A stretch of 64,000 nt of DNA from Paraflavitalea soli (lineage in GTDB: Bacteria; Bacteroidota; Bacteroidia; Chitinophagales; Chitinophagaceae), in NCBI RefSeq assembly GCF_003555545.1, contig NZ_CP032157.1, forward strand, positions 5,150,546 through 5,214,545, in the 5' to 3' direction. A program made the position numbers and the translations under genes. Position 1 is the stretch's first letter, and each line of letters starts with the position of its first letter. Shown here piece after piece: positions 1,289 to 27,777 of this stretch. Under the pieces are notes generated by a model. That model ran no database searches, had not been told where the DNA came from, and worked only from the letters and a program-made list of their open reading frames with translations.

Positions 1289-2041
1289 TTAAGAGAAATA
1301 GGTTCCGCCGTTGATATCAATATTAGCGCCGGTAATAAAACTGCTTTCATCACTGGCCAGGTAAGCAACGAGGTCGGCTACTTCAGCAGCTTTCCCTTCC
1401 CGGCGCAGCGGCGTGCCATTGGCCACATTGGTGCGGATCTCAGGTTTGGTAAATGTATCATGGAAAGTAGTGGCAATCATACCCGGGTCTACTGCATTCA
1501 CGCGAATACCTTTGGGGCCAAGCTCTTTGGCAATGGATTTGGTAAAAGTAGCCACCGCTCCTTTGGCCGTAGCATACGCCGAAGCACCAAAACCTCCGCC
1601 ATCACGACCAGCTTGTGAAGAAAAGTTCACGATAGCGCTACCGGCAGGCATCAGGGGTGATACATGCTTGGTAAGCAGGAAAGCCGATCGCACGTTGAGG
1701 CCCATCACAAAATCCCAGAAATCAGTATCCATATCGGCCAATTGTTTACGGGCTACCATACCACCGGCTACATTCACGAGGATATGTATGTCTTTACCAA
1801 AAGCTTGTTGTGCTGCCTGAATAAGATTTACAACATCGGCATCTTTACTCACATCGCCTTTTACGGCAATGGCTTCACCACCTTTTGCTTTGATCTCCGC
1901 CACTGTATCTGCCGCCTGTTGTTCACTGCTTAAATAGTTGATCACTACTTTAGCTCCTTCCTGCGCCAGTTTGATCGAAGTGGCTTTACCAATGTCTCTT
2001 GCACCACCTGTAACGATGGCTACTTTGCCTGCTAATTTCAT
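1289..2041 (-). CDS. SDR-family oxidoreductase, probable DEH (unsaturated uronate) reductase
   Basis: Classical short-chain dehydrogenase of 250 residues. The cofactor motif TGGARDIG is at 11-18, NVAGG at 90-94 in place of the usual NNAG, the catalytic Ser near 141-142 and YATAK (Y156, K160). No signal peptide, so cytoplasmic. By sequence alone it resembles FabG-like reductases. Its place in an alginate locus between an MFS transporter and a PL6 lyase makes reduction of 4-deoxy-L-erythro-5-hexoseulose uronate (DEH) to 2-keto-3-deoxygluconate the likely role, as for known alginate-locus SDRs. It starts 7 bp after the transporter stop, so the two are surely co-transcribed. No kinase or aldolase for KDG is present in the window. 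Confidence 0.8.
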   Translation of the reverse strand: MKLAGKVAIVTGGARDIGKATSIKLAQEGAKVVINYLSSEQQAADTVAEIKAKGGEAIAVKGDVSKDADVVNLIQAAQQAFGKDIHILVNVAGGMVARKQLADMDTDFWDFVMGLNVRSAFLLTKHVSPLMPAGSAIVNFSSQAGRDGGGFGASAYATAKGAVATFTKSIAKELGPKGIRVNAVDPGMIATTFHDTFTKPEIRTNVANGTPLRREGKAAEVADLVAYLASDESSFITGANIDINGGTYFS

Positions 2042-2048: not shown

Positions 2049-3437
2049 TTATTTGTTTGTAAATGATTGGTTGGGTTTTGCTGTAATGAAGGTGATGCAT
2101 ATCCATGCCAGCGGCACCATCAGCGCGCCCAGTATAAAAAAGGACGTATAACTTGTTTGCGTGATCACGGGTACGATCCAGGTGGTGATCAGGGTTCCCA
2201 GTACGGCCGATGTACCACCCATACCTGCCACGGTGCCTACATTCTTTCCATGGAAATAATCGCCGGGCAGGGTTTGTATATTATTGATCAGGAATTGAAA
2301 GCCAAATAAGGTAGCGCTGATCAGGGCAATGGCCACATTCACCTGTTCTTTCAAATGATCGAGGTAAAAGGCGATCAGGGTTAAGGATACCAGCATAATG
2401 ATGCTGCCGATGGTAATGGCCTGCTTTCGCGCTTTGGGTGCCGCTATACCCTTCTTAATTTTAGAAGAGGAAAAGAAACCGCCCATCAATCCACCGATCG
2501 CGGCAAACAAATAGGGCACCCAGGCGAAAGCCCCGATCTGCTTCATGTCAAACTGGTACTGCTCCTTGAGAAAGGTAGGCAACCAGGTCACGAACAGCCA
2601 CCATACGGGATCAATAAAGAACCGGGAACTAATGATGCCCCAGGTGTTTTTGAACTGCAACAGTTGGCGCCAGGTATACACAGTAGTAGCCGTGGTTCTT
2701 GCTGCCTCCGCTGCTGCGTTACCCTGTTGAATGTAATCTTGTTCTTCCCTGGTGATCCAGGGGTGTTTATCCGGTGTATTCTTATTGATCAGTAGCCAGG
2801 GAATGATCCACAGGAAACCCAGCACAGCGATCACCACAAAGGTGGTCTTCCAGCCAAAGGCCAGGAACAGACCAGCGATCACGGGCGCTGCTACTACGGA
2901 ACCCAGGGAAGCGCCTGCACCAAAAATGCCCTGTGCGATGGCCCTTTCTTTAGGCGGAAACCACTCGGCATTGCTCTTGGTAGCACCCGGCCAGTTGCCC
3001 GCTTCACTGATGCCCAGTAAAAAACGAAAGATATTAAAGGACAAGATAGATCTAGCCAGGGCATGCAAAGCAATGGATATGCTCCAGCCAATGATCGATA
3101 CGGCCATACCCAGGCGGGTACCAATAGCATCCATCATTTTGCCTGTCACGGTTTGTCCAATGGCATAGGCCACCATAAAGAAAGTAGTGATGAGGGCCAG
3201 GGCATTTTTGCTATCGCCATCAGCAATACCAAAGTCCTTATAGATATAGGGCCACATGAAATTGATAGCGCCTCTATCAATATAATTAATAATGGTAGCC
3301 AGGCCGATCAGGGAAATGATATACCACCGCAATCCCTTCAGCTTGAATGCTCCCTTTCCTGTGCCCGCTGCCTTGCCGGCAAGGCCGCCGTTGCGGGTTC
3401 CCGTTTTCGTTGTTTGTATATCTGTACTTGCTTTCAA
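2049..3437 (-). CDS. MFS transporter, hexuronate/ACS family
   Basis: Inner-membrane major facilitator of 462 residues with about twelve hydrophobic segments. The first segment ends in NYIDRGAINFMWPYI, like ExuT-type anion:cation symporters, which carry N-Y-x-D-R at this place. In this locus it would import unsaturated uronate monomers or DEH released in the periplasm by the PL17 enzyme. The only in-frame start before the first membrane segment is TTG at 3437: a stop lies two codons upstream and no ATG occurs before the helix. The glycine- and threonine-rich N-terminal tail (residues 9-30) is unusual and may be poorly conserved. The start is 21 bp after the esterase stop. Confidence 0.85.
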   Translation of the reverse strand: MKASTDIQTTKTGTRNGGLAGKAAGTGKGAFKLKGLRWYIISLIGLATIINYIDRGAINFMWPYIYKDFGIADGDSKNALALITTFFMVAYAIGQTVTGKMMDAIGTRLGMAVSIIGWSISIALHALARSILSFNIFRFLLGISEAGNWPGATKSNAEWFPPKERAIAQGIFGAGASLGSVVAAPVIAGLFLAFGWKTTFVVIAVLGFLWIIPWLLINKNTPDKHPWITREEQDYIQQGNAAAEAARTTATTVYTWRQLLQFKNTWGIISSRFFIDPVWWLFVTWLPTFLKEQYQFDMKQIGAFAWVPYLFAAIGGLMGGFFSSSKIKKGIAAPKARKQAITIGSIIMLVSLTLIAFYLDHLKEQVNVAIALISATLFGFQFLINNIQTLPGDYFHGKNVGTVAGMGGTSAVLGTLITTWIVPVITQTSYTSFFILGALMVPLAWICITFITAKPNQSFTNK

Positions 3438-3458: not shown

Positions 3459-4352
3459 TTATTGATTGGGGATCTTCAGCTTTTGCAGAAATGCCGCAAT
3501 GGCTTTATTCAATTCAGTGTTCTTATCCCTGGGAAATCCGCCATGCTTGCCACCTTCCACGGTCATGAATTCGGTGATCACTCCCGCTTCCTTTAGCTTT
3601 TTGTGCAACTCTACTGATTGTTCATAAGGTACTGTGGGATCTGCATCACCATGGGCAATGAAGACCGGGGGATTGTCCTTGTTTACATAATTAACAGGAG
3701 ATACCGACCGGGCAAAAGCCGCATCAGTGGCCTTATCTCCCAACCAGCGGGTAGCCGATTTACTCGTAATGTTTTTGCCATAACCCCAGTCCCATACATC
3801 GGTGATGCCATATTTGTCGATGATGGCAGCCACCTTAATATTTTCTACACCGGGACAGTTGCCATCAAAGCGGTGATCATTGGCGAGCAGACCAGCCATA
3901 AGGGCCAGGTGCCCACCCGCACTGCCGCCCATTATCACGATCTTGTTGACATCTATGTTCAGTGCTTTGGCATTTTTGATCAGGTAGATCAGGGCGCAAC
4001 GTGCATCTTCCACCGCAGCAGGGGCTGTAGCCTGGCCTGTGAGGCGGTATTCGATATTGGCTACCGCAAAACCCATTTTAAAGAAGGTATTAAATCCCGA
4101 CTGCGATTCTTTGGTGCCGTGGTTCCAGCCACCACCATGAATATTGATCACCACCGGTGTGGGCTTACCATTGTTGGGCGGCAGGTAGAGATCCAGCTTT
4201 TGTTCCCAGTTCTTGCCGCTGGTATATACCACATCTATTTGACGGGTGAAACCTGCCGGTGTTTCTACAGGTTTGGGAGCAGTAGAATCTGCTTGTTGGG
4301 CAGTAGCTGTCATAGCGAAGGTGATACCCACCGCTAAAAGGATATATTTCAT
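3459..4352 (-). CDS. Secreted alpha/beta hydrolase, BD-FAE-like esterase
   Basis: 297-residue exported esterase. I chose the ATG at 4352 (signal MKYILLAVGITFAMTATAQ); the open frame extends to 4634, but that part would overlap the cupin gene and reads as non-coding. The oxyanion-hole motif HGGGW, nucleophile elbow GGSAGGH, acid D in AHGDADPTVP and catalytic H in GGKHGGF are all present, as in the BD-FAE / Abhydrolase_3 carboxylesterases. Such enzymes remove acetyl or feruloyl esters. Inside an alginate operon the simplest role is deacetylation of O-acetylated (bacterial) alginate before or during lyase action; this is inference. It lies between the cupin gene (148 bp gap with purine-rich and AATTCTA-type repeats) and the MFS gene. 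Confidence 0.75.
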   Translation of the reverse strand: MKYILLAVGITFAMTATAQQADSTAPKPVETPAGFTRQIDVVYTSGKNWEQKLDLYLPPNNGKPTPVVINIHGGGWNHGTKESQSGFNTFFKMGFAVANIEYRLTGQATAPAAVEDARCALIYLIKNAKALNIDVNKIVIMGGSAGGHLALMAGLLANDHRFDGNCPGVENIKVAAIIDKYGITDVWDWGYGKNITSKSATRWLGDKATDAAFARSVSPVNYVNKDNPPVFIAHGDADPTVPYEQSVELHKKLKEAGVITEFMTVEGGKHGGFPRDKNTELNKAIAAFLQKLKIPNQ

Positions 4353-4359
4353 ACGAAGA

Positions 4360-4393
4360 GATTTCGGATTTAGAATATAGAATTTAGAATTGC
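4360..4393. repeat. Short AT-rich intergenic repeat
   Basis: The stretch reads as near copies of ATTTAGAAT (gatttagaatatagaatttagaatt), just upstream of the esterase start on the minus strand. It belongs to the simple sentence-like repeats seen at several gene borders in the first 30 kb. Confidence 0.4.
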
Positions 4394-4500
4394 TACCGCG
4401 ACTTGAAGGTACTGATCGAACACAGCTTCCTACAAAAAGCGGACGACTAAGGAAATTACAGAACACTTCGCCCCTATTTCCTCTTTCTCCCCTTCCCCTC

Positions 4501-4839
4501 CTAGCCCAGAAAGTCTTCGCGCAATGGGCTGAAGGCGTCGATAAGCATGCCAGGCTCCAGGCATACACAGCCATGCAGCACATGCGGCGGCACATAATAA
4601 CCATCGCCCTTGCGAATGATCTTCTTCTCTGCACCGATGGTCATTTCAAAGGCACCACTGTCTACATAGGTCACCTGTGAATGGTGGTGCTCATGGAGGG
4701 TGCCAATGGCGCCCTTCTCAAACTTCGCCTTTACCAGCATGATCTTGTCATCATAACCAAATACCTGCCGTTGGATACCATTGCCCAGGTCTTCCCAATG
4801 TACTTCCTGCTCAAACTGAAACTCGCTGCTTTGTGCCAT
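4501..4839 (-). CDS. kdgF: KdgF-like cupin, unsaturated uronate linearisation
   Basis: Single-domain cupin of 112 residues, cytoplasmic (no signal). The metal site H49, H51, Q55 and H89 lies in GTLHEHHHSQ and PPHVLHG. The C-terminal DAFSPLRED gives D101, F103 and R107, which correspond to the catalytic-pocket residues Asp102, Phe104 and Arg108 described for KdgF. KdgF speeds ring opening of 4,5-unsaturated monouronates made by pectin or alginate lyases. That fits exactly between the PL17 lyase upstream and the SDR downstream. It starts 6 bp after the PL17 stop. The assignment rests on motif match and context. Confidence 0.85.
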   Translation of the reverse strand: MAQSSEFQFEQEVHWEDLGNGIQRQVFGYDDKIMLVKAKFEKGAIGTLHEHHHSQVTYVDSGAFEMTIGAEKKIIRKGDGYYVPPHVLHGCVCLEPGMLIDAFSPLREDFLG

Positions 4840-4845: not shown

Positions 4846-6969
4846 TTAATTAATAGTGATAAAGGATGCTTTATCGTTATACTGTAAGGTGATTGTATAC
4901 ATTTTCTTTTTGTACGTTATTTCCAACTGAGTGGCGCCGGCTTCATCTTTCAGCAGCTTCACGGCTTTTACCTGTGGTGTAGCTCCTGTGGTTACTTCCG
5001 CTATCGGATTGTTTTTCCCATGGGGTTCGGTAACACTGATAAAGGTCTGGTTGGCCGCTGCAGGCTGTGAAAGCACAAAGGCTTTCTCGTTCCTCAAATT
5101 AAACTCCGGGTCACCTGCACCACTGGTAATGAACTGCACCCGCAGGGCGGTGTCGGCTATAAAAGTAGTGGTATAAAACTTTTTGTTATTCAACAGGGTG
5201 ATCACACCATTGCCTTCTTTTACCCTACCGGTGGCATTGAGCCAGACATGCTGGTAGCCTTGCTTATCACCCATTGCCTGTATAGTTTGGGTATTGGCGG
5301 CTATCTCGAAGGGCGCGTTGGTAATATGGCCCTGGTACCAGAAGGGCAGATCATACTGGTGCTTTTGAGCACTCTGCACATTGAATACATCGATCAACAG
5401 GGAGGCGGGTGCACCATCCGGCTTAAAGAGGATCACGGTACGCCGTAGCTGCACGCCCGGATAAGCATTATTGTCCTGTGCGCTTACTACCTGGTAATTG
5501 CTGCCTGTACTGAAGTGAACGAGTTCTGGTGCATGTTCTTCTCCTTTCTTTTCATTGGCCTGGTATTGGCTTTGCCTGTCTACGACCAGGGTATTGTGGG
5601 CCAGGGTTTGCTTGCCCCAGGTATCATTTTCTTTGGTATAATTACCGCCATTCTTGGTCTCTACATTCAGGAAACGTACAGCGCCATAATCGGGGAACAC
5701 TTCTGTATTGTTGTCGTAGAACAACACATTCAACCGGTCGAAATGTCCATGGCCCATACCCTGGGAAGCAGCTTTGAATACCACACAGGACTGTTCCTCA
5801 TTATCGCCACTGCGCAGGATGCCAATACCGCCCTGTTTTCCATCGGCCCCATCGCGTATCCACATGGGTTTGTATTGAAAGGAAGCTGCATCGCCTGCCG
5901 CTATTGCTTTGGCCACTTTTAATCCGGCATCACCCACGATCACTTTCTGTTGCTGCTGTGCAATATCCAGCAGGTCATTGCCTGCCTGCATATCACTGTA
6001 GGCGATGTCTACCGCATATACGATCTCCTCCGACTCATAGGTCTTGTCCTTCATTGCGTCATTCAGCGGGAAAAACACTTTATTGGTATAGGTGCATTGC
6101 AAAGCTGTATTAACAGCCTTCTTCAGCAAAGCATTCCTGTATTCATAGATCTTCTGTGCCGGCTGGTATTGCTGAATGGTGCGCGCAAAAAGCAGAAAGG
6201 GCAAAATAGCGTACCGCTGGTAATAAGGACCTTCGGTATAATACCCATCCGGTGAAAAGAGTTGATCCAGTTGTGCCAGAAAACCTGCTTTCCCATCAAG
6301 GGCAGTACCCTTCAGTGCTTTTTCCACCCAATCTTTCCGGCCACATACATAACCCGTCATACCTACCGCGGCTACTGACCAGGTACCATGATTGTGTATC
6401 TTATTGAATATTTCTCCATTTACTTCGCTCAGTTCCTTTACGATCGGCTCAAAGAGATCGGTTTCAATTGTTTTCCTGCTGGCGGCGCCCAGGTAATCAT
6501 ATACACAGTCATAGGCCTGGATGGTGTACACCTGCCACACACAATCATTGAGGTTTTGCCAAAACATTTTACCTCCCGGGATTTGTTTCTTCTTCGGGTG
6601 CCGGGGCCAGGTATTGTATACTGCTGCATATTGCAGCAGCATATCCTTCACAAATTTGGCATACCGCTCTTCTTTGGTAAGCTGGTACAACATACCACAG
6701 GCCACCATATCCTGGTAATTGCGCTTGTGCCGTTCATGGGTAGCGCCGCCGCCGGCATCTTTGGGCAGGGGCACTTCTATGGGCGTAGCGATGGCCTTAT
6801 CTGCATCTTTCTTTAAGGACTTAAAGGATTGTTGCAACAAGGGATAGGCCGTTGCACCCTGGCGTACCACTTCCACATTGGCTTTGGTAAGCATGATGGA
6901 AGGATGTTGCTGTGCTGTTCCCGCCATGCCCATCATTACACCTGCACATAAAAAAACAATGGTCTTCAT
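4846..6969 (-). CDS. PL17 oligoalginate lyase (heparinase II/III-like)
   Basis: Exported lyase of 707 residues with an N-terminal alpha/alpha toroid and a C-terminal beta-sheet heparinase II/III domain. The signal peptide is MKTIVFLCAGVMMGMAGTAQ. Residues matching Alg17c are visible: N193-H194 in IHNHGTW, Y250 in EGPYYQRY (same 56-residue spacing as H202 to Y258), H407 in GMGHGHFD. PL17 enzymes act exolytically on alginate oligomers and release unsaturated monouronate. It therefore takes the products of the two PL6 enzymes and feeds KdgF. Its start lies 1 bp from the stop of the PL6 gene at 6971, so the genes are translationally close. Confidence 0.92.
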   Translation of the reverse strand: MKTIVFLCAGVMMGMAGTAQQHPSIMLTKANVEVVRQGATAYPLLQQSFKSLKKDADKAIATPIEVPLPKDAGGGATHERHKRNYQDMVACGMLYQLTKEERYAKFVKDMLLQYAAVYNTWPRHPKKKQIPGGKMFWQNLNDCVWQVYTIQAYDCVYDYLGAASRKTIETDLFEPIVKELSEVNGEIFNKIHNHGTWSVAAVGMTGYVCGRKDWVEKALKGTALDGKAGFLAQLDQLFSPDGYYTEGPYYQRYAILPFLLFARTIQQYQPAQKIYEYRNALLKKAVNTALQCTYTNKVFFPLNDAMKDKTYESEEIVYAVDIAYSDMQAGNDLLDIAQQQQKVIVGDAGLKVAKAIAAGDAASFQYKPMWIRDGADGKQGGIGILRSGDNEEQSCVVFKAASQGMGHGHFDRLNVLFYDNNTEVFPDYGAVRFLNVETKNGGNYTKENDTWGKQTLAHNTLVVDRQSQYQANEKKGEEHAPELVHFSTGSNYQVVSAQDNNAYPGVQLRRTVILFKPDGAPASLLIDVFNVQSAQKHQYDLPFWYQGHITNAPFEIAANTQTIQAMGDKQGYQHVWLNATGRVKEGNGVITLLNNKKFYTTTFIADTALRVQFITSGAGDPEFNLRNEKAFVLSQPAAANQTFISVTEPHGKNNPIAEVTTGATPQVKAVKLLKDEAGATQLEITYKKKMYTITLQYNDKASFITIN

Positions 6970-6970: not shown

Positions 6971-9265
6971 CTAATTCACTCCCAAAGGTTTTCCCTTGGC
7001 CGAAAGGAGACTGGTACCCTTTACCAGTCTGAAATCGAACCGGGACGGATTATTAAATAGGGGGTTGCTATTAAAAATATGTTTCCCTGTAACGTTGTTG
7101 TAAAATGAACTCACCCGGCCACTCCGGTAAAAATTACAATAGTCTACCAGCAGTTTATCCCAACTCATTTCTTCAAACCAGATCACCCGGCCGCCGGCGC
7201 CACTATTATTGAATACCGAATTGGTAATGGCGGCTCTTTGCACACCCCATAGTTTTAGCACACAGCCCTGGGCACGGTTTTCCACCCCACTAAAAGTGCA
7301 ATGATCGATGATCACTTCGGGTCCGGTAGTGCTTTCATCATTACCACCTCGGTATACATTTACAGCGCCACCCAGGGTATTGGCAAATGCGGAATTACGG
7401 ATAACCAGGCGCTCCACATTGTAGATGCCTTTGTCTTCTTTCTCGGCACTATAATCAATGGCGCTGCCGGCATTGTTCCTGAATACACAATCTTCGATAG
7501 TCACGGAATCGGCATAAGTGCTTTTGGCTCCTTTGATGCAACTGTAACTACTTTCATTGAAGTTGTAAAATGTACAACCTTTCACCTTGAGAGCGTACGA
7601 ACCGTTCATGGGGCCGGTAGTAGTGCTGATGGCAGCTTGTACATCGCCATAGCTTTTGTAAGCACTGTTGAACTGAATATTTTCGATCTTCAGACTACCG
7701 CCCTTCTCAATGATGATAAAGGAAGGAAGACTTTTGCCGGAGACATTTACCAGTTCTGGTTTACCGGCCAGGCCGGCTTTAGCACGTATAGTAATATGTT
7801 TATTAATAATGAGGGACTTGTCTATTTCATACAGGCCGGCTTCCGTCAATTCAATTTCACTACCAGTGGACAAACCGGCAATTAAAGAAGGTAGTCGTTT
7901 TGCATCTGCGATAGAAACGGGGATCACCTCACTATCAAGTATTTTTCTTGTATCGAGGTTATACCAGGAGGGAGCAGTAGTAACGGCATCCATCCAGCTC
8001 AGCAAGGAGCGATCGATGCCACTTTTATGGTCGGGAATAAAGTAAATGCTATCACCATATTTCATATCCACACCCTTCCATCCTATATCTTCTCTAAACC
8101 CAGCAGATGGTTTTCCTGGCATGGCGCCCCTATAAAAGTTATCGGCAAACCGGATACCACCATCTTTATTGGCGTCCTCATACAAGGATCTGCCATAAGG
8201 AATTATATAGTTATCGGTAAAGCGCACGTTTTGTGGAGTTGCTGTTCGTTCCGCATCCTTGCCCGCTCCAAATATGATGCTCCTGCAATTGATAAAAGTA
8301 TTGTGCCCGATGGTGGCATCTTTTACCTGGTGGTAACGGCTGATGGATGAGTTGGGCACGCCATTCAATACACTGAAACCTGAATGGAATCTTTCGCCCG
8401 CCAGGTCCATAAACAGGTTATTGGAAACGGTGTGACCGGGATTGATGACGCGTACCCCGCCTGTAAATGGCTTGTTGTTACCAATGAAAATATTGTTGGT
8501 AATCTTGTTCTGTGAACCATGCCTCAATACCAGGCCACCCTGGCATTCATAAAACAGGTTGTTATTGATCTCGTTGTTGCCGCTCTTAATGGATACGATC
8601 TCTACTTCGCCGCTGCACCTTTCGAAATAGTTGTGGTGGATCATGGTGCGGGAGGCAGTGAGTGAATACCTCGACACTCCTACTCTTATGGTCTCGCCGC
8701 CATTGGAACCTAATGGAGAATGGCCCTTAAAATAATTACTATCGATGCTATGGTAGTTGTTCTGGCTTCTTTCGTCATTCAGTTCTACAATGAGGGTCGT
8801 ACCACTATTCAGTTTATCGCCGATCACACAATGGTCAATACGGTTGTGTTGTCCCCACAGGATCAGCCAATGGTCTGTATTAAAACGGTCGGGCCGGCTG
8901 TAGTTCTCGATCACGCATTGGGTGAGGCGGCAGTTATTGGCCAACTGCTGTTCCTTGTTCCTGAATTCCACCACGGCCCGGTCAGTCGTATAGCCATCGG
9001 TGAAATGGATGCCGCTCACGGTCACATAGTCGCTGCCAAAACGGATAAAGGAGTTGCCGGTAAATTGCACCTTACCCGGTTCCTGTGCTGCAATGACCAG
9101 GGGTTTTTCTTTGGTACCGCTGGTTTCAATGATGAGAGGGACATCTTTCCAGGTACCTCCTTTTAATAAAATGCTGTCGCCCGGTTGTGCTTTGGACAGG
9201 GCAGCGTTCAACTCCTGTGGATTGCTCACCAGGATGGTGGTGGCGTTCACTGTTGGAATGAGCAA
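6971..9265 (-). CDS. PL6-family alginate lyase, long two-helix form
   Basis: Long PL6 enzyme of about 764 residues with two parallel beta-helix halves, like AlyGC. Counting from the TTG at 9265, calcium ligands E220 and E222, and catalytic K227 (VSIKSGN) and R248 (LVLRHGS), keep the PL6 spacing. The second half (residues 460-760) is another repeat-rich helix. The start is a problem: the frame is open further to 9310 and encodes KQNYFISTIFLLLLIPTVNA, a textbook signal peptide, but no ATG, GTG or TTG precedes it; the codon in the expected place is ATC at 9302-9304. TTG 9265 or CTG 9268 would leave a signal peptide without its charged end. Probably initiates non-canonically or has lost its ATG by one base. 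Confidence 0.88.
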   Translation of the reverse strand: MLIPTVNATTILVSNPQELNAALSKAQPGDSILLKGGTWKDVPLIIETSGTKEKPLVIAAQEPGKVQFTGNSFIRFGSDYVTVSGIHFTDGYTTDRAVVEFRNKEQQLANNCRLTQCVIENYSRPDRFNTDHWLILWGQHNRIDHCVIGDKLNSGTTLIVELNDERSQNNYHSIDSNYFKGHSPLGSNGGETIRVGVSRYSLTASRTMIHHNYFERCSGEVEIVSIKSGNNEINNNLFYECQGGLVLRHGSQNKITNNIFIGNNKPFTGGVRVINPGHTVSNNLFMDLAGERFHSGFSVLNGVPNSSISRYHQVKDATIGHNTFINCRSIIFGAGKDAERTATPQNVRFTDNYIIPYGRSLYEDANKDGGIRFADNFYRGAMPGKPSAGFREDIGWKGVDMKYGDSIYFIPDHKSGIDRSLLSWMDAVTTAPSWYNLDTRKILDSEVIPVSIADAKRLPSLIAGLSTGSEIELTEAGLYEIDKSLIINKHITIRAKAGLAGKPELVNVSGKSLPSFIIIEKGGSLKIENIQFNSAYKSYGDVQAAISTTTGPMNGSYALKVKGCTFYNFNESSYSCIKGAKSTYADSVTIEDCVFRNNAGSAIDYSAEKEDKGIYNVERLVIRNSAFANTLGGAVNVYRGGNDESTTGPEVIIDHCTFSGVENRAQGCVLKLWGVQRAAITNSVFNNSGAGGRVIWFEEMSWDKLLVDYCNFYRSGRVSSFYNNVTGKHIFNSNPLFNNPSRFDFRLVKGTSLLSAKGKPLGVN

Positions 9266-9438: not shown

Positions 9439-10164
9439 CTACATTTCAATCTTCCGTTCCCGGCTGATCTGCAGGATATCGTTGAGGTGCGCTGCCATGG
9501 CAATGCCGGCAGCGTCGGGATCTTTATCGGCAATGGCGGTGAGTATCTCATGGTGTTCTGCCATGGCCTGTACGCCCCGGTTATCGCCACAGATCTTTTT
9601 CTCGATGATGTTGCGGATGATATCGGGCAGCAGCATCAACAGCATGGATTCGAATACGGAGTTCTTGGCGGCATTGGCGATCTTCAGGTGTAGGAACATG
9701 TCTTCCTGAACGGCATTCTCTTTGTGTTTTGTTCTAAGGTCGTAATCTGCTACGGCGGCTTGCAGGATGGCCAGGTCTTCCTCCGTTCTGCGTTGGGCTG
9801 CCAGCCTGGCGGCATTGATCTCGAGGTAATAGCGGGCTTCGATCAGTGCCGCAAAATCATCTTTATTGAAAGTGATAATGTCATTCAGTACGCCTTCGAT
9901 CATTTTGATATTGTACCCGGAGACATAGGTACCGCTTTGGGGGGAGGTCTTGAGCATGCCATAAAACTCCAGTTTGCGGATGGCATCGCGTACGTAGGTA
10001 CGGCCTACACCGAATTTTTCGGCCAGGACCCTTTCTGCCGGCAGGCGGTCGCCCGGCTTCAGGTGTCCCTCACTAATCAAATGTTTCAACTGGCGGATGA
10101 TCTTATCCACCGGACTGTCTACCTCAATAGCCTTAATCGTTTCAATAATGGTTGTCTTTTCCAT
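9439..10164 (-). CDS. GntR-family regulator, FadR subfamily (FCD domain)
   Basis: DNA-binding regulator of 241 residues. The winged helix-turn-helix spans about residues 15-82, with the GntR signature L-K-P-G-D-R-L-P-A-E-R and RTYVRDAIRKLE. The C-terminal FCD ligand domain (about 90-235) has the usual helices, with D/H residues in FLHLKIANAAKN and AEHHEIL that could hold a metal ion and an organic acid. FadR-type regulators such as UxuR/ExuR bind sites of the ATTGGTnnACCAAT form. Two such sites lie upstream of the first gene of this same operon (16789-16815). The likely signal is an alginate-derived uronate or KDG, relieving repression. It is encoded 11 bp after the surface lipoprotein, so it is made with the locus it probably controls. 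Confidence 0.9.
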   Translation of the reverse strand: MEKTTIIETIKAIEVDSPVDKIIRQLKHLISEGHLKPGDRLPAERVLAEKFGVGRTYVRDAIRKLEFYGMLKTSPQSGTYVSGYNIKMIEGVLNDIITFNKDDFAALIEARYYLEINAARLAAQRRTEEDLAILQAAVADYDLRTKHKENAVQEDMFLHLKIANAAKNSVFESMLLMLLPDIIRNIIEKKICGDNRGVQAMAEHHEILTAIADKDPDAAGIAMAAHLNDILQISRERKIEM

Positions 10165-10175: not shown

Positions 10176-11756
10176 TTATTTCTCCTTCATCACATCTACC
10201 GTGATCGTGGAAGTACCCTGGTTGGGCGACGCCACGATGTTGAGGCTTTGTACTTTTATCAAAATGTTTTTGGTGGTGCCGCCGCCTGCCGGTGTCATCT
10301 TAGCCCAGATCAGCGAAGCCGTCGTATAGGTTGTTTGATTGGGAGCATTGGCATTGGGTGCGGATATGCCTGTGAAAAAGGCGTCACCAAGTTCGGTAAT
10401 TGTATTGTTATTATACTTATTATATATGCTTGTTTCTGCTACTCCTGTTCCCAATACCCGGAAAACAGTTTTTTTCAGGGTATTGGCGGTAGGGGTTGCC
10501 GGCGTCCAGGCAGCACCACTGCACTTAAAAGTGGTAAGGGTAGCGGCTGAAATATTAGCCGGGTTGTTGAAAGCCAGGTTGCCCGAGCTATTGGTAAAGA
10601 TGGCAAAGTCTACTTTGGCATGATTGGAAGGATCGTTCACCACCTCGCAGGCACTCAAAAAAGGCGTGGCCGGTTCGCCCAGGAAGAAACAGCTGGGTGA
10701 GTTGACGGTGGCAGTTCCCTGCGACATGAGGGTGATATTGTTCCAGCGATAATAAGGCAATATTTTTACCGGTACGGATCCGGCATTGCTGCTATTGGTA
10801 CCGTCTTTCGCCACCAGCTTGCATTCTTTTACATTATCAGCAAAAGGAAAACCAGTGAGGCTGAAGGTATAATTGTATTCGTTGGCGGTGTTGCTCACCA
10901 GTACGGGTATCACCGGACCTTGAAGAGTTTCCCCACCCGCTGTAACGACCCAGGCCTCCACGGTCGACAAGGCAGTATAGGATTTAAGGGTACCGTTGAT
11001 AGCAGGCGTTCCATCCGGCAGGGCTGCACGCAGGGTATCTGCCTCAAAACTGATGACGGGCTTGAAAGGAATATTTACAAACTGAATGACCTTCTCTGCT
11101 TTTAACCCGTAAATATCTACCGCTGTTACTTTCAATTGTCCTGCCCCCGGGGTATAGGTATAATTGTAATTAATGGTCACATCCTTGCTGCCACTGGGAC
11201 TGATACTGTCTACTGTTGCAAAATTACCGGTGCTGTTGTCATAAAAATAGATCTTGCTGATACCGGTTGGGGAGCTTGCCTTACCGGTAATAGCTGTAGT
11301 ACCGGTTAAAGAGGGTGTTACGGTTTCCGGTAGATCCTTCAGTACGGGCGCCGCCGGGTTGAAATAGGTGATCTTCACCAGTTTTTCCAGGGAGGTATTG
11401 TTGTCCTGTACGGCCAGCAGCTTGAGCCCTTTCACGCCCACCAGGTCAATATTGGGCCATACATCGGCTTTAATGGAAAAAGCATATTCTTTCTCACCAG
11501 CGGGAAAATCCAGCTGAATAAGGGAGTCGGCTTTACCCGTACGTTGTATGTAATAATAGAGTGTCTTCACGTTAATGTTGGTCGTTAATTTACCACCCAC
11601 CGTTTTCTCCGGCTGAAAACCTTTGAGCGCCACATTCCAGGTGTAGTCTATCGCTTCCAGGTTGCCGGTAGGCTCGATGAACTTATCTTTCTTACAAGAG
11701 GCCATGACCAGTAACAGCGCCGCCAGAAAAATAAATGACTTGATCTGTATTTTCAT
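10176..11756 (-). CDS. Surface glycan-binding lipoprotein of alginate locus (SusE/F position)
   Basis: Lipoprotein of 526 residues. The lipobox VMASC places the lipidated Cys at 21, followed by KKDK, in line with surface export of Bacteroidota lipoproteins. The body reads as several Ig-like or PKD-like beta domains (strand-rich segments near 150-230, 230-330) and a C-terminal beta domain of Ser/Thr/Asn-rich strands (340-526). No catalytic motif is seen. It follows SusD, the place where SusE/SusF-type surface glycan-binding proteins are found. The likely role is holding alginate at the cell surface next to the SusCD transporter. Sequence family not recognised beyond this. Confidence 0.7.
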   Translation of the reverse strand: MKIQIKSFIFLAALLLVMASCKKDKFIEPTGNLEAIDYTWNVALKGFQPEKTVGGKLTTNINVKTLYYYIQRTGKADSLIQLDFPAGEKEYAFSIKADVWPNIDLVGVKGLKLLAVQDNNTSLEKLVKITYFNPAAPVLKDLPETVTPSLTGTTAITGKASSPTGISKIYFYDNSTGNFATVDSISPSGSKDVTINYNYTYTPGAGQLKVTAVDIYGLKAEKVIQFVNIPFKPVISFEADTLRAALPDGTPAINGTLKSYTALSTVEAWVVTAGGETLQGPVIPVLVSNTANEYNYTFSLTGFPFADNVKECKLVAKDGTNSSNAGSVPVKILPYYRWNNITLMSQGTATVNSPSCFFLGEPATPFLSACEVVNDPSNHAKVDFAIFTNSSGNLAFNNPANISAATLTTFKCSGAAWTPATPTANTLKKTVFRVLGTGVAETSIYNKYNNNTITELGDAFFTGISAPNANAPNQTTYTTASLIWAKMTPAGGGTTKNILIKVQSLNIVASPNQGTSTITVDVMKEK

Positions 11757-11800
11757 ATCGCAAACATTCAGTCGTTAATGGTTCTTGTTTTGTTGTCGCC

Positions 11801-11942
11801 CCGAGCTTGTCAAAGGGCCTTTTAAAACGGCTTCGACAAGCTCAGCCTGACACTAGCCTTCGACAGGCTCCTTTAGATCAGGGTTAGCCGCCCTTAGAGG
11901 GCGACCCACCCTTCAAGAGCCTTCGACAGGCTCAGGCTGACA
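11801..11942. repeat. Cluster of TTCGACAGGCTCAGGCTGA intergenic repeats
   Basis: Three same-direction copies: CTTCGACAAGCTCAGCCTGA at 11831-11850, CTTCGACAGGCTC at 11858-11870 and CTTCGACAGGCTCAGGCTGA at 11921-11940. An inverted partial copy, GAGCTTGTCAAAG, is at 11803-11815. A small stem, CGCCCT tag AGGGCG, is at 11889-11903. The motif is a familiar intergenic element in many Bacteroidota genomes; its role is not established. Here it separates susD-like from the lipoprotein gene and may form a mid-operon RNA structure. Confidence 0.8.
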
Positions 11943-11946
11943 TCTC

Positions 11947-13518
11947 CTAATAACCCTGGTTTTGTGTGATCACAATCTGGTTATTGCTATCCATTTCCCG
12001 TTGGGGAATGGGCAATAGGGTACGGATCCTGATATTGTTCTTCAGTTCGTCCAGTGGTATGGCTGGTTTGAATTTCTTATAGTGTGTGTCGTATTCATAG
12101 GTGTAATAAGTGTTCATCACGTTCTCAAACTGACCGGTGCGGTAGAGATCAAACAAACGGTGGTTCTCAAAAGCCAGTTCAATCCTTCTTTCATCCAGCA
12201 GGCGGCCCAGGAAGTTGGCATCGGTAGTAGCTTCAGCTCCGGCATCGGGATAGAGGTAAAAAGCTGCGGTGAAATTGCCGGTGCCGGGATACACTATAGC
12301 CCCTGCCCTACTGCGGATACGATTGATGATATCAACAGCAGCCTGGCTAAAGCCCAGGGCTTCTGCCTTCAGCAGCAGCACATCGGCAAAACGGATCACC
12401 GGGAAATCATTTTCCGCATCATTCTTGATCATGACAGGTGAGGTAAATTTCTTCATATAAGGGTTGCCATTGTATTTGCCAATGGTTACATCCCTGCGTT
12501 TGTCGGCGCCACCGGTAGCAGGTACAATGTATTTAGACTCCATCTGGGCAGTGGGATAATTAAGGCCCGATCCGTTGCCGTTTACAATGGCGCTGCCGCT
12601 GTTGAGGGCTGCAAAACTATTGGCCATATAATTGCCCAGCCCCAATCCTCCGGCCTTGTAACGCACAGCGAAGACGATCTCTTTATTCATTTCGTTGTTG
12701 ATGGAAAATACATCGGCATAGGAAGTCAGCAGATCGTGCCCGCTGGCCGTAATCACATCTTCCAGCAATGTCAGTGCATCTGTTTTGCGATTGGTGGACA
12801 GGTACACTTTGGCGAGGAGTGATTCTGCAGCCCATACGGTAGCGCGGCCAAGGTCTTCCTGCGCCTGTGCACTGAAGCTCTTACGGGGCAGGTAGTTCTT
12901 AGCTGCTTCCAGGTCGGCTACGATCAGTTTGTAACAATCATCCACAGATGACCGGTTGACCTGTTTCAGCTCGGCCGGTGTTTTGGGATCGGTGAGCAAG
13001 AACACGCCTCCAAACAGGCGCACCAGGTTGAAATAATGATAAGCGCGGATGAACAAGGCTTCCCCGGCCAGTTGCTTGCGGCGGTCTTCTTCCATTTGTG
13101 CGGTACCTTCTCCCAGGAAGATCTGGCCATTGCTATAAGACACACCCAGGCTTCTCAGTACATAATTGGCACTGCGGATATTTTTATAGGTATAGAACCA
13201 GTAATTGTACACCTGGCTATGACCAGAGTTTTGCAAGTAAGTATTCAGGTCGTTCAACTCTATATTGGCAACCGCTGTACTACCGGTAGCGCCCTGCTTG
13301 GTAACATCGGAGCGGAGTTCGGTCATCATCCATTCTGTTTCCAGTGGTTTTTGCAGACCATTATAACAACCCGTTAAAGCCACTTTCACCTCATCATAGT
13401 TCTTATAATAATTTTCAACATCTACATTCGACTCCGGCTTGAGGTCGATGATCTTGTTGCAGGAAGCCATCAGGCCTGCCAGCAACAAGGTGCATATGAT
13501 ATATGAGCAAGTTTTCAT
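11947..13518 (-). CDS. SusD/RagB-family outer-membrane glycan-binding lipoprotein (alginate locus)
   Basis: 523-residue SusD homologue. The lipobox GLMASC gives lipidated Cys 20. It has the typical N-terminal segment (KPESNVDVENYYKNYDEV), TPR-like helices (AEALFIRAYHYFNLVRLFGG near 150-172, VWAAESLLAKVYL near 228-240) and the C-terminal RagB/SusD domain ending in LLPIPQREMDSNNQIVITQNQGY. SusD proteins form the lid over a SusC barrel and bind the incoming oligosaccharide. It lies 23 bp after the SusC stop, the standard pair order. Substrate is inferred to be alginate oligomers from the lyases downstream. Confidence 0.95.
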   Translation of the reverse strand: MKTCSYIICTLLLAGLMASCNKIIDLKPESNVDVENYYKNYDEVKVALTGCYNGLQKPLETEWMMTELRSDVTKQGATGSTAVANIELNDLNTYLQNSGHSQVYNYWFYTYKNIRSANYVLRSLGVSYSNGQIFLGEGTAQMEEDRRKQLAGEALFIRAYHYFNLVRLFGGVFLLTDPKTPAELKQVNRSSVDDCYKLIVADLEAAKNYLPRKSFSAQAQEDLGRATVWAAESLLAKVYLSTNRKTDALTLLEDVITASGHDLLTSYADVFSINNEMNKEIVFAVRYKAGGLGLGNYMANSFAALNSGSAIVNGNGSGLNYPTAQMESKYIVPATGGADKRRDVTIGKYNGNPYMKKFTSPVMIKNDAENDFPVIRFADVLLLKAEALGFSQAAVDIINRIRSRAGAIVYPGTGNFTAAFYLYPDAGAEATTDANFLGRLLDERRIELAFENHRLFDLYRTGQFENVMNTYYTYEYDTHYKKFKPAIPLDELKNNIRIRTLLPIPQREMDSNNQIVITQNQGY

Positions 13519-13541
13519 TGTATGCAGTTTATGGCAATTCG

Positions 13542-16500
13542 TTAGAAATTAATGTCAATACCCACTGTCACTGTTCTTCCAATGGGGAAGGCACCCCGCT
13601 GGTAACCGTCGATCAAGGGTGATGCATATTGATTGGAAGTCGTGCGCGCTTCGGGGTTGATACCGCGATAAGAAGATGACATGATATACAGCAGGTTTTC
13701 GCCGGAAGCATATACGCGCAGGCCATTCAGCTTCATGCGTTTTGAAACAGCAGTGGGCAATGAATAGCCCACTATCACACTGCGCAGCGCCACGTATGAA
13801 CCATCTTCTATCACATAATCTGTCAGCATCCAGTCTGAGCCATTGGTACCGTACGGGGTTTTACCATCACCGGGATTGGCTGCACTCACCCACCTGGCTG
13901 CGGTATTGTAATTCTCATTGTACCACCTTGATTCGTTGTAGTTGGCATCGCCATTAATAAGGTCCAGTCCCTGCACGCCCTGAATGGTAATACTCACGTC
14001 GAAGTTCCTGTACTTAATATTGTTGGTCATACCCCAGGTAAAATCAGGGAAGGGGCGGCCCAGTACGGTACGGTCTTTTTCATCAATGCGTTTATTGCCA
14101 TCCACGTCTACAAACTTCAATCCACCCGCCACAAAGTATTTGGAGAGGGAGCTGCTATAGCCTGCTGCCTGCGCATCGGCTATTTCCTGGTCAGACTTCC
14201 ACACACCGTCGGTTTTGTAACCGAAGAACTGTACGGAAGGAGCGCCTACAATGGCTGCATAGATCTCATTGCGCTCCCCGTAATTGTATTGGAAAGGTTC
14301 GCCGCCCATGTCCAACAATTTATTTTTGTTGGTAGCAAAGTTGAACATGGTTACCCATTCCAGGTTCTTCCTGCGCAGGTTGTTGGAAGTAAGTTCCAGT
14401 TCAAAGCCCTGGTTGCGTACTTTGCCGATATTGTTCCAAAACTGGTTGGAACCGGAGAAAGACATGGTATTCTGTTTGAACAGCAACCTGTCGGTAGTAC
14501 CATTGTAATATTCCAGGCTCATGGTAAGGCGGTCTTTGAAGAAACCGAGGTCGATGCCTGCATTGTACTGGAAGGTGCGTTCCCAGGTGAGCACATTGGG
14601 CAATACATCATTGTTGGCTGCGAGGCCATTGTTGAGTGTGCCGGTGCCGCCGCCCAGGGGATAATTGGCCATGTTCAACAATTCCAGGTAAGAGAAGGGT
14701 TCAATTTTGTTATTGCCCGTAGCGCCATAACTGGTACGCAGTTTCAGGTTGCTCAGCCAGTTGATGTCCTCCATAAATGGTTCGCTGCTGATGCGCCAGC
14801 CGGCAGATACGGCAGGAAACCAGCCATATTTTTGTCCCGGAGGGAAATAACCGCTACCATCTGTACGAAGGCTGGCAGACAACAGGTACTTACCCTGGTA
14901 ATCATAATTCACACGGCCCAGGTAAGAGAGCAGGCCAATGGGTGTTTTAGTAGTATAAGTGCCTGCCAGTTCAATGGAAGAAGCCTGGTTCAATGTTTGG
15001 ATATTATCGCTGGGCAGGTTCACGCCTGTGATCTGGCTTTCATTGATGGTTGTTTTCTGTGCAGTATATCCCAATACACCTGATAGTGTATGATCGCCAA
15101 AGGACGTATTGTAGTTCAGTGTATTTTCCCAAAGCAGGTCAATGAACTTGCGGGAATAGTTGACGCCCCTGTTCACATCGCCATCGGCTTTGGCATTGCG
15201 TTTGGAAAACGTATTGGTCTCAGTATAATTGAAATAAGCGCTGGCGGATGATTTCAGGATGAGCCCTTTCATGAGTTCAATGCTCAGGTCAAAACCACCC
15301 AGCACGCGGTAGTTATCACTAAAGCGGCTTTGCCTGTCGGCAATGGATTTGGGAGTATTGTTGCTGGAAGAGAAAGGAATTAGTTTGCCACCTGTAGCGG
15401 TAGGATCGGTAGCACTGTTGTAATAGCTGCCATCGGGCATATAACCCTGGTATACCAGGTTGGAGAAATGACCTGCCTGTGCCCAATCACCCGGCCTTAT
15501 GCTGGCCCATTGGGGATTCTGGTTTACAAAAGCCGCTGTGGCTGTAGTATGATAGACGGGCAAGCCGGAATAGAAACGGTAATAATCGGTATAGTTTACC
15601 GCAGGCAATTCACTGCGGGTATAGGAAGGATTTAAGTTGAGGCTGAACTTCACTTTTGAACCGAGGTTACCATCCAGTTTGGTTTTAAAGTTCATGCGGT
15701 TATATTCATTGTGGGTCATGATCCCTTTGTCGGACTGGTAATTGCCGGAAATATAATAGCGCACATCTTTTCCGCCGGATACGCCCAGCTGCATATTGTA
15801 AATAGCGGCATCCTGCAATCCTTCATCCTGCCAGTCGGTGCCATCGCCATTACGCAATACGCTTTCTACCAGGTAGCGGGCTTTTTCCTGCGGGGTAATG
15901 AGGTTTTGTTTGTCGGCAGTCACGGTAGGATCTTTTGCCCGCATGGCAGCTTCGTCGTACATTTTTTGCGTGTACGCGGTTGTGCTCATGATGGGGTGCA
16001 GTTTGTAGGGGCTCTTTACGCCGTAATAAGACTTCACGGTATACTTTGGCTTATTAGTCTTGCCGCTTTTGGTGGTGATGATGATGACGCCGTTGGCGCC
16101 GCGGGAACCATAGATGGCTGCGGAAGCGGCATCTTTCAATACTTCCACGGATTCCACATCATATGGATTCACCATCGCCAGGCCATCGGGCACGGGGTGG
16201 CCATCTACTACTACCAGGGGATCGGCATTGGCGCTGATGGAGCTAAGACCCCGTACGCGTACCCGGGGAGTGGTACCCACTTCGGAGCTGAGGTTTTGAA
16301 CGGTAACGCCGGCCATCTTACCGATAAGTGCTTTGTCGAGGCTGGAGGTAGGGATTTCATCCAGGTTATCGTTTTTCAGTTTGGCAATGGAACCGGTAAG
16401 GTGTGATTTCTTTTGCGCGCCATAACCGATCACCACCACATCATCGAGGGTGGCGGCGAGGGTACTGAGTTGGACCGTCAGGAAATCCTTGCCATCCAAT

Positions 16501-16757
16501 TCTACGAGGTGGTTTTTGTAGCCAATAGCGGTGATCATGAGTTTGCCGGAACTACGGCTGCTGAGTTTGAGGGAAAAGTTACCGGCACTGTCGGTAGTAA
16601 CACCCGAACCGGTTTTACCGCCTACCGCGCTAACGGAAACATTTGCGAGTGGCAGGCCGGTTTTGGCATCGGTGACCTTTCCCTTGACGGTATTCTGGGC
16701 CCAGGCGCTGAGGTTAAAAAGGAGAAACAAGAGCAAAAGGGGTTGGAGCTTTCCCAT
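13542..16757 (-). CDS. SusC/RagA-family TonB-dependent transporter (alginate locus)
   Basis: Outer-membrane importer of 1071 residues. Signal peptide 1-21, carboxypeptidase-D-regulatory-like domain about 23-100, TonB-box-like DDVVVIGYGAQKK at 105-117, plug domain about 118-230 including VRGLSSISANADPLVVVDG and YGSRGANGVIIITTK (216-230), then a 22-strand-type barrel ending in GRTVTVGIDINF with terminal Phe. It would move alginate oligomers across the outer membrane, powered by the TonB-ExbBD genes found near 60 kb. It is the first gene of the alginate operon, with promoter and operator directly upstream. ATG at 16757 gives a sound signal peptide. Confidence 0.95.
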   Translation of the reverse strand: MGKLQPLLLLFLLFNLSAWAQNTVKGKVTDAKTGLPLANVSVSAVGGKTGSGVTTDSAGNFSLKLSSRSSGKLMITAIGYKNHLVELDGKDFLTVQLSTLAATLDDVVVIGYGAQKKSHLTGSIAKLKNDNLDEIPTSSLDKALIGKMAGVTVQNLSSEVGTTPRVRVRGLSSISANADPLVVVDGHPVPDGLAMVNPYDVESVEVLKDAASAAIYGSRGANGVIIITTKSGKTNKPKYTVKSYYGVKSPYKLHPIMSTTAYTQKMYDEAAMRAKDPTVTADKQNLITPQEKARYLVESVLRNGDGTDWQDEGLQDAAIYNMQLGVSGGKDVRYYISGNYQSDKGIMTHNEYNRMNFKTKLDGNLGSKVKFSLNLNPSYTRSELPAVNYTDYYRFYSGLPVYHTTATAAFVNQNPQWASIRPGDWAQAGHFSNLVYQGYMPDGSYYNSATDPTATGGKLIPFSSSNNTPKSIADRQSRFSDNYRVLGGFDLSIELMKGLILKSSASAYFNYTETNTFSKRNAKADGDVNRGVNYSRKFIDLLWENTLNYNTSFGDHTLSGVLGYTAQKTTINESQITGVNLPSDNIQTLNQASSIELAGTYTTKTPIGLLSYLGRVNYDYQGKYLLSASLRTDGSGYFPPGQKYGWFPAVSAGWRISSEPFMEDINWLSNLKLRTSYGATGNNKIEPFSYLELLNMANYPLGGGTGTLNNGLAANNDVLPNVLTWERTFQYNAGIDLGFFKDRLTMSLEYYNGTTDRLLFKQNTMSFSGSNQFWNNIGKVRNQGFELELTSNNLRRKNLEWVTMFNFATNKNKLLDMGGEPFQYNYGERNEIYAAIVGAPSVQFFGYKTDGVWKSDQEIADAQAAGYSSSLSKYFVAGGLKFVDVDGNKRIDEKDRTVLGRPFPDFTWGMTNNIKYRNFDVSITIQGVQGLDLINGDANYNESRWYNENYNTAARWVSAANPGDGKTPYGTNGSDWMLTDYVIEDGSYVALRSVIVGYSLPTAVSKRMKLNGLRVYASGENLLYIMSSSYRGINPEARTTSNQYASPLIDGYQRGAFPIGRTVTVGIDINF

Positions 16758-16788
16758 ATAGCAAGCGATTTATCGTTATTAAACCAAA

Positions 16789-16815
16789 TTGGTCAACCAA
16801 TTATTGGTTGACCAA
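16789..16815 (-). promoter_or_regulatory. Double FadR/UxuR-type operator upstream of SusC
   Basis: TTGGTCAACCAA (16789-16800) and TTGGTTGACCAA (16804-16815) form a perfect 27-bp palindrome around one central base. Each half is itself a near-palindrome of the TTGGT-nn-ACCAA type bound by FadR-subfamily GntR proteins such as UxuR/ExuR. The site covers the predicted -7 element and transcription start of the alginate operon, so bound regulator would block transcription. The regulator is most likely the GntR protein at 9439-10164. Confidence 0.75.
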
Positions 16816-16844
16816 ATATTGGATTAATCTGCTGCACTTCCAAA
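16813..16844 (-). promoter_or_regulatory. Probable Bacteroidota promoter of the alginate operon
   Basis: On the minus strand, TTTG (plus 16841-16844) is followed after 20 bp by AATATTTG (plus 16813-16820), one mismatch from TAnnTTTG. Transcription would start near 16807, about 50 bases before the SusC ATG and inside the operator. The overlap of promoter and operator supports both calls. Confidence 0.5.
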
Positions 16845-17118
16845 TTAAATTTGGTAAAGAGGTGGAGTATGGTATTAGGCAGGTACCCCCGAAATGGTAT
16901 TGAAGGCCGGTTAAGATTCACTTAAGACAGGAGGTTAAAGCGCACTTACTAAGGGTTTGGAGATTTGCTTAATCCACAGCCGCCCTTCACCCGGCAGACA
17001 GCCATTAAGTAACTGGCAGATCGCTGCGAGTACACTTCGTATGGAGGCATGACCCTCGGGCCAGCGGGCAGAGCAGCTAAGGAAAGTTTTCCAGCCTGGG
17101 ATTTCACCAGATAGATTT
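16816..17118. other. Intergenic stretch without recognised gene
   Basis: Between the SusC control region and the decayed fragment at 17119. A 72-codon open frame on the minus strand (16935-17153, TTG start) lacks coding character, and I see no homology. Apart from the promoter end at 16844, nothing recognisable. Confidence 0.4.
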
Positions 17119-17326
17119 ATGACGTATATTGTTGACAGACAACCCTTAAACAATTTTTGAATCTGCTGAAACTCTCTACAACCTACATCCCTTAACCCCC
17201 AACTATGAGCTTATACACGACGATGTAAAGAAATACAAGACCTTATTTTTTCAAGTCCTGCTCAGTAACATCGTTGCGACCACGGGTACTTATGTCTTAC
17301 TTAAGAATAATTCCTGCTGGCTGTGA
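17119..17326 (+). pseudogene. Possible decayed coding fragment with frameshift
   Basis: ATG at 17119 opens MTYIVDRQPLNNF, then a run of five T (17154-17158) ends the frame with TGA. In the next frame the reading continues as ESAETLYNLHPLTPNYELIH and on through KYKTLFFQVLLSNIVATTG to a stop at 17324-17326, about 70 residues in all. The second part reads like real protein with a hydrophobic segment. Family not recognised. It may be a gene remnant with an indel in the T run, or chance. Confidence 0.3.
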
Positions 17327-17386
17327 TCAAGAAAAGTTGTGAGGAATGATCTTAATTGACAATGATAAATTTATATCTTAAATATT

Positions 17387-20944: not shown

Positions 20945-20968
20945 ACTGCTGTGTTTTTACGTTGTATC

Positions 20969-22552: not shown

Positions 22553-22565
22553 ATGCTGCCTTTGC

Positions 22566-24392: not shown

Positions 24393-24413
24393 GAGTGCTA
24401 AGTTTTGGAAGCA

Positions 24414-27551: not shown

Positions 27552-27684
27552 GGCAGTAGTTTAAAAATTTAGTTATTAGATCGTCAGACTATGGCTTAGG
27601 ATACCAAAGAAACGGGCAGGTAAAAACGATTCCAACTTATATAGGGAAAGTATAAGAAATAAAGCCTTTAGGCGAGGAATGGTG

Positions 27685-27720
27685 AATTACTAATTACTGA
27701 TTATTAATTACTTATTATTA
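27685..27720. repeat. AATTACT simple repeat upstream of SusC
   Basis: AATTACT occurs at 27685-27691, 27692-27698 and 27706-27712, within an AT-rich stretch. It lies between the SusR-like gene and the SusC promoter region, 130 bp before the SusC start. Could be a repeat of the intergenic family or part of an activator site; no way to tell from sequence alone. Confidence 0.4.
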
Positions 27721-27777
27721 CATTATACATTTTACTATATAATTAAATATAGCCTGCTTTTAAGTCAAAGCGGGGGA

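Follow-up and report, generated by a model that had tools for sequence, protein, structure and literature searches.

UxuR control is known for hexuronate genes in Proteobacteria, and control of an alginate utilization system by a GntR-family protein has been described in the Bacteroidota. The described case is AusR of Zobellia galactanivorans (Dudek et al. 2020, NAR, doi 10.1093/nar/gkaa533). Passages in PMC7874173 and PMC8286568 state, respectively, that AusR binds its promoters via single, double or triple operators, and that it represses most alginate-utilising genes, with oligosaccharide, alginate-derived effectors preventing the binding. The alginate cluster of Flavobacterium sp. UMI-01 is also close to the locus treated here: GntR-like genes lie in operons with lyases, a sugar permease, an SDR reductase and SusC/SusD, but there are two GntR-like genes and two operons, and the passage on this cluster describes no operators (PMC4306948). 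Among the regulators of alginate clusters in polar strains, GntR accounts for 16 of 29 and LacI for 8 of 29, in the account given in PMC7874173. In a survey table of GntR-type regulators, as far as its text goes, the FadR subfamily appears without a member from Bacteroidetes (PMC4494728).

We analysed a 64-kb stretch of the Paraflavitalea soli genome (the window), in which a GntR gene sits within an alginate PUL together with SusC/SusD and lyases, and in which the sites proposed as operators are double, as against single to triple in the relatives; in both respects the locus resembles the AusR type (PMC7874173). An earlier note on this DNA set a co-encoded GntR repressor with a double operator against the SusR, hybrid two-component or ECF sigma control of many Bacteroidota polysaccharide loci. 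A GntR repressor with multiple operators on an alginate locus is not new in this phylum, AusR being a precedent (PMC7874173, PMC8286568); the kind of circuit is already published, and the window would add another case in another family. There are also differences. The flavobacterial loci, the likely kin of AusR (itself known here by description), carry the same site at 13/26-bp spacing as against 15 bp in the window; their GntR proteins are 39-44% identical to that of the window; and the flavobacterial GntR gene stands just before MFS and SDR genes, whereas that of the window lies downstream of SusC/SusD.

Our reading, grounded on what can be read from the sequence (the sites, a promoter-like box, the gene order, the GntR/FCD domains, and the co-occurrence and co-movement of gene and site), is that two copies of the site TTGGTnnACCAA very probably form a tandem operator to which the operon's own FCD-type GntR protein would bind, repressing the operon until an alginate breakdown product releases it. 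In the circuit as we infer it, from co-transcription and binding to repression and inducer, two GntR dimers would, when no alginate is present, sit side by side on the DNA at a centre-to-centre distance of 15 bp, roughly 1.4 turns of the helix, and would mask both the -7 box of the SusC promoter and its start site, blocking polymerase. The whole operon would be held low, the GntR gene included, and because this gene lies inside the operon the negative feedback would make the loop self-limiting. The DNA would be freed, and the operon turned on, once a small acidic product of alginate degradation (DEH, KDG or a related uronate) binds to the repressor, probably in the metal-binding pocket of the FCD domain. 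The features concerned are collected in Table 1.

Table 1. Operators, predicted promoter elements and operon genes in the window
Feature	Position	Strand	Basis or remark
Predicted -33 element TTTG	16841..16844	-	promoter pattern match
Predicted -7 element AATATTTG	16813..16820	-	pattern match; consensus TAnnTTTG; 3-base overlap with operator 1
Predicted transcription start	16808	-	predicted solely by taking the G of the -7 TTTG as -5, the numbering given in PMC6847099
Operator 1, upstream copy, TTGGTCAACCAA	16804..16815	-	sequence; fused to -7 box; conserved in relatives
Operator 2, downstream copy, TTGGTTGACCAA	16789..16800	-	sequence; conserved in relatives
SusC/RagA TonB-dependent transporter, first operon gene	13542..16757	-	profile match
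SusD-like surface protein	11947..13518	-	profile match
526-aa protein	10176..11756	-	no Pfam/NCBIfam match; kept beside SusD in close relatives
GntR/FCD regulator, proposed repressor	9439..10164	-	11 bp behind previous gene
PL6-type lyase	6971..9265	-	Pfam Chondroitinas_B
PL17-type oligoalginate lyase	4846..6969	-	NCBIfam oligoalginate lyase, 721.8 bits, below cut-off 1400
BD-FAE type esterase	3459..4634	-	profile match
MFS transporter	2049..3437	-	profile match
SDR oxidoreductase	1289..2041	-	profile match

The short distance between the GntR gene and its neighbour makes their co-transcription likely. PL6 and PL17 are used here as the family names of the two lyases, and the SDR oxidoreductase is likely a DEH reductase. 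The 526-aa protein adjoins SusD in the SusC-first relatives (L031-L039) as well, with 47-74% identity.

On the minus strand, TTGGTCAACCAA-TAA-TTGGTTGACCAA, running from 16815 to 16789, is an exact 27-bp palindrome of two sites, just as the earlier note had claimed. Each half is a copy of the 12-bp palindromic site TTGGTnnACCAA, the two being set 15 bp apart from centre to centre with a 3-base gap, and the symmetry ends at 27 bp, where the adjoining base on each side is mismatched. The palindrome proper is confined to 16789-16815, while the span of 16786-16844 given earlier takes in the promoter as well. It stands 31 bp upstream of the SusC gene start, and its two halves are the only exact copies of TTGGTnnACCAA in the whole 64 kb. 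Regarding the class of the half-sites, which had been assigned to a common UxuR/ExuR/FadR group, the site shares the TKGT/ACMA boxes and the 2-nt gap between GT and AC with UxuR-class operators, as these are laid out in PMC4494728; the assignment holds for the UxuR-like class but not for ExuR and FadR, whose operators have 3 nt between GT and AC. A degenerate third copy, TTATTAAACCAA, with 2 mismatches, occurs at 16776-16787, 13 bp from operator 2, and TTGG-type half sites follow operator 2 in several relatives too.

The GntR gene product carries an N-terminal GntR wHTH (PF00392, 2.9e-19) and a C-terminal FCD domain (PF07729, 4.4e-22), the combination that defines the FadR (FCD) subfamily. Across 15 aligned GntR proteins D155, H159, H204 and H226 are invariant, which makes them candidate metal ligands; they follow the order of the zinc ligands of Atu1419, a correspondence by sequence order and not by structure, and several FadR-subfamily proteins are described as holding metal by Asp/Asn plus three His (passage in PMC7797058). 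Proteins of this subfamily bind small ligands, e.g. carboxylic acids (text of PMC4494728), and these ligands, the metal residues and the function of the operon together make DEH, KDG or a related acid the likely inducer. Pfam scans of 40 reading frames, which covered small frames in part, found no second GntR protein in the window, in line with the original statement that it is the only regulator of its group there. The genome encodes three FCD proteins in all, the other two at 229 kb and 744 kb.

In the 8.44-Mb genome, single exact copies of TTGGTnnACCAA are at chance level, with 10 places against 17 for the reversed pattern, whereas the tandem form is unique and stays at 1 place even when up to 3 mismatches are allowed at the fixed 3-base gap. 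A wider regulon built on single sites was rejected, since the total, with 8 further exact sites, falls below the reversed control; 7 of these 8 lie inside stop-to-stop frames of at least 100 codons (a loose test). The sole one outside such frames (L003 1501-1512; own genome, 1738086) is found between two divergent genes, presumably for Gfo/Idh/MocA oxidoreductases, and could be chance or a second target.

We then surveyed 394 genomes of the family with a tandem pattern that allows a gap of 2-4 bases and with a GntR threshold of E <=1e-35. The GntR protein has a match in 26 genomes, and all 12 genomes with the tandem pattern (one place each, except one genome with two) are among those 26; none of the 368 genomes that lack a GntR match at that threshold showed the pattern, and the reversed control appeared in 1 of 394. 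Such nesting of 12 within 26 has a chance probability of 3.9e-16 if the genomes are taken as independent, though they are related. PL17 matches (E <=1e-80) occur in 56 of the 394 genomes, 25 of them GntR-bearing, so that 25 of the 26 GntR-bearing genomes also have PL17, although in some of them the PL17 match lies outside the GntR locus.

The earlier note had proposed a search for the site upstream of alginate loci in related genomes that carry the GntR gene. We scanned the 25 loci around the GntR gene from the other 25 GntR-bearing family genomes and, for contrast, the PL17 loci from 20 of the 31 PL17-positive, GntR-negative family genomes, some of them shortened by contig ends. The exact site is present in 22 of the 25 GntR-bearing loci, with 41 exact sites in total, as against none of the 20 contrast loci (361,839 bases), in which no GntR match was found either. 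Two further loci (L048, L055) have one-mismatch sites only. It had also been held that absence of the palindrome where the regulator is kept would speak against the circuit. The outcome does not speak against it: a site with at most one mismatch persists in 24 of 25 loci, but the exact tandem is present in only 12 of the 26 GntR genomes; the others have a single exact site, two exact sites standing apart, or sites with one mismatch, and L040 has none. Judged by this comparison of sequences, the conserved unit is the 12-bp site and not the 27-bp palindrome.

The position of the sites changes with the gene order. They stand before SusC in the SusC-first loci (the window and L031-L039) and before GntR in the GntR-first loci (L041-L043, L045, L046), where the arrays are double or triple with steps of 14-15 bp, counting one-mismatch copies; L044 has a site pair at both promoters. 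In the divergent SusC/GntR pairs (L050-L053) two single sites lie 118-138 bp apart in the shared gap, and in L054 there is only a SusD piece on the SusC side of the gap. The comparison thus lends support to the circuit proposed for the GntR protein and its double operator, in that the site travels with the GntR gene, precedes whichever gene heads the operon, and was not found in the 20 PL17 loci without GntR. The exception, L040 (G385), has no operator site that we could find and an intact GntR gene of 237 aa. We considered a broken gene and rejected it, the TGA in the match being the ordinary end of the intact 237-aa frame. In this genome (L040 / L206) the GntR gene is an orphan, flanked by pieces of the genes for the 526-aa protein and the SDR enzyme, and the lyases and transporter are lost.

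Most of the contrast loci are not close counterparts of the window: in 18 of the 20 the PL17 protein is 40-46% identical to that of the window, and only L186 stands apart, with 80% identity in SusC, 73% in SusD and 62% in the 526-aa protein, but only 45% in PL17. L186 and L192, the two contrast loci checked for LacI, both carry a LacI gene. Like the window they are PL6/PL17 loci with SusC/SusD, these two being closely similar in L186; unlike the window they encode LacI, not GntR, and lack the TTGGTnnACCAA site, which in L186 is missing even when one mismatch is allowed. LacI would presumably control both loci, and L186 (coordinates of interest 5266-6282 and 11234-17664) is, by its sequence, a natural regulator exchange, a similar transporter locus with LacI for GntR. 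These two locus types, GntR-bearing and LacI-bearing, fit the counts quoted above for polar strains.

Beyond the family, a scan of named genomes gave 80 loci, including Chitinophagaceae, Sphingobacteriaceae, Saprospiraceae, Cytophagales-type genera, Bacteroidales and Flavobacteriaceae, of which 75 remained after L074, L075, L084, L115 and L149, taken to be duplicates of family loci, were left out of the site counts as well as of the pair, spacing and tree analyses. An exact site occurs anywhere in the locus in 60 of the 75, and a site with at most one mismatch stands within 250 bp before GntR in a different 60, against 1.2 expected from shuffles; here, as for promoter and spacing, the shuffles are first-order Markov copies. 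Of the 15 loci without such a site before GntR, 10 carry an exact site at some other place, L126, L127, L148 and L133 have only one-mismatch sites elsewhere (that of L133 inside the SusD match), and L085 has no exact or one-mismatch site in the locus.

Variants before GntR recur in the 75 loci, CTGGTnnACCAA 15 times and TTGGTnnACCAG 8 times. In L088, L093, L103, L106, L109 and L111, which belong to Cytophagales-type genera and Bacteroidales, TTGGTnnACCAG replaces the exact site just before GntR. Likewise, the one-mismatch form CTGGTTAACCAA is found about 30-90 bp before the GntR coding match, whose first residue varies, in 15 flavobacterial loci (L117, L119, L120, L122, L129, L134, L135, L138-L142, L146, L151 and L153), where, from its sequence and place, it may serve a weaker self-regulation.

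These distributions bear on the question of which protein binds. The operators could be real and have another regulator as their main binder, for instance either of the remaining FCD proteins, given that the genome encodes three and that TKGT/ACMA boxes are common to the FadR subfamily according to the text of PMC4494728. However, among the 394 family genomes tandem sites are confined to those with this GntR protein, the sites adjoin this GntR gene through the phylum, and the other two FCD genes have no exact site within 60 kb; we regard another main binder as quite unlikely.

The predicted promoter over the operators bears on what binding would do. The form claimed earlier, TTTG-N20-AATATTTG over the palindrome on the minus strand, holds, but with 9 of 10 letters of the Bacteroidota sigma-ABfr consensus (TTTG, about 19-20 bases, TAnnTTTG); the letter absent is the first T of the -7 box, one of the nearly invariant positions according to the text of PMC6847099. 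With a start near 16808 in the numbering of that source, operator 1 is predicted to span about -7 to +5 and operator 2 about +9 to +20. We searched for TTTG-N18-22-TAnnTTTG within 150 bp of the sites in the 10 SusC-first loci (the window and L031-L039): all 10 loci match in 9 or more of the 10 letters and 7 match perfectly, while shuffled segments gave 207 in 1000 and 12 in 1000, respectively. The -7 box ends, with its final G, on the third base of operator 1 in 6 of these 10 loci, among them the window. The -7 box of L039 is one base off that register and a weaker match, and in L033, L034 and L036, which have one exact site each, it lies 15 bp upstream on a two-mismatch operator copy. Combined into one composite promoter-operator pattern, the two elements gave 11 matches in the 26 GntR genomes and none for the reversed control, with 8 of the 11 at alginate loci. 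The other 3, all from genus g10, were dismissed as chance; they fall inside a reading frame, the start of which, in L204 and L205, we take to read like pyruvate kinase.

It might also be that the GntR protein binds here and activates, or merely tunes, the promoter: repression at this locus is a prediction, and some GntR-family proteins activate. A protein bound to the sites, however, would sit on the -7 box and the predicted start and should keep polymerase out, and AusR is described as a repressor (PMC8286568), so that we find activation or tuning quite unlikely.

A different function at the RNA level can be conceived, namely that the leader RNA of SusC folds at the palindrome into a hairpin that acts as an intrinsic terminator or attenuator, with a 12-bp stem, a 3-nt loop and a T-rich tail. 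A terminator scan does rank it first of 15 in the region, its stem being the longest and its tail TTTGG, and of 48 pairs of neighbouring exact sites 13 have complementary centres against 6.9 expected, a value reached in 69 of 5000 shuffles. Yet the hairpin centre is broken in 35 of the 48 pairs, which means that the stem is not kept in relatives, and many loci have a single site or three sites in 15-bp steps. Moreover, the first arm would be mostly untranscribed with operator 1 in its predicted place, the terminator-like sites of the region are no more numerous than in shuffles (15 against 17.4), and a hairpin is not expected to track the GntR gene. We consider a hairpin function very unlikely. 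That the palindrome is a mere chance feature, as the chance-level frequency of single sites could suggest, is hardly conceivable in view of the uniqueness of the tandem form and the conservation of the sites at the same promoter in relatives.

Returning to the tandem operator for the GntR protein, the distance between neighbouring copies differs between lineages. Counting pairs in which one member or both are exact and the distance is at most 60 bp, the 26 loci of the family set have spacings of 14, 15 and 16 bp (18 pairs), 30 (3), 28 (1) and 43 (1), and 41 other non-flavobacterial loci have 15 or 16 (34 pairs), 30 (2), 27 (1) and 41-58 (5). The 34 flavobacterial loci, in contrast, have solely 13 (22 pairs) and 26 (11 pairs), and shuffled sequences gave no such pairs. 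A tree of the GntR proteins (101 rows) separates the two kinds of spacing completely: the 22 loci with 13/26 bp belong to the flavobacterial clade, which has 34 rows and a support of 100/99, and the 34 loci with 14-16/30 bp lie elsewhere in the tree. The split rests on 56 rows, with 44 having no tandem pair and one a spacing of 27, and it is the only thing claimed from this tree, the deepest forks of which are weak and the long branches flagged. It may be, and we see the case as evenly balanced, that there are two phasing classes of Bacteroidota alginate GntR repressors, one of 13/26 bp in Flavobacteriaceae and one of mostly 14-16 (or 30) bp in the remaining lineages of our sample. On this account the repressor would have changed the packing of neighbouring dimers and kept its 12-bp site, and operator 1 would have merged with the -7 box in the lineage of the window. 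The split between 14-16 and 13/26 bp is possibly new: in the open-licence literature we found no description of it or of the fusion of operator and -7 box, and the AusR paper may report the Zobellia spacing.

If the circuit holds, what is known from one marine flavobacterium would extend to another family and, by the conservation of the sites, to several further families of the phylum. The site TTGGTnnACCAA, fused to the -7 box in the lineage of the window, would offer a ready operator for predicting alginate regulons, and it could be used to build uronate-controlled promoters in Bacteroidota. In addition, the 13/26 versus 14-16 bp split lends itself to testing how neighbouring FCD dimers are arranged on DNA and what determines the distance between them.

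The window also holds a second PUL (18785-29391) with GH97, a GH71-like protein, SusD and SusC, in which no TTGGTnnACCAA site was found with up to one mismatch. Just upstream of its genes lies a DUF6377/TPR protein (27778-29391), which may be a PUL regulator.
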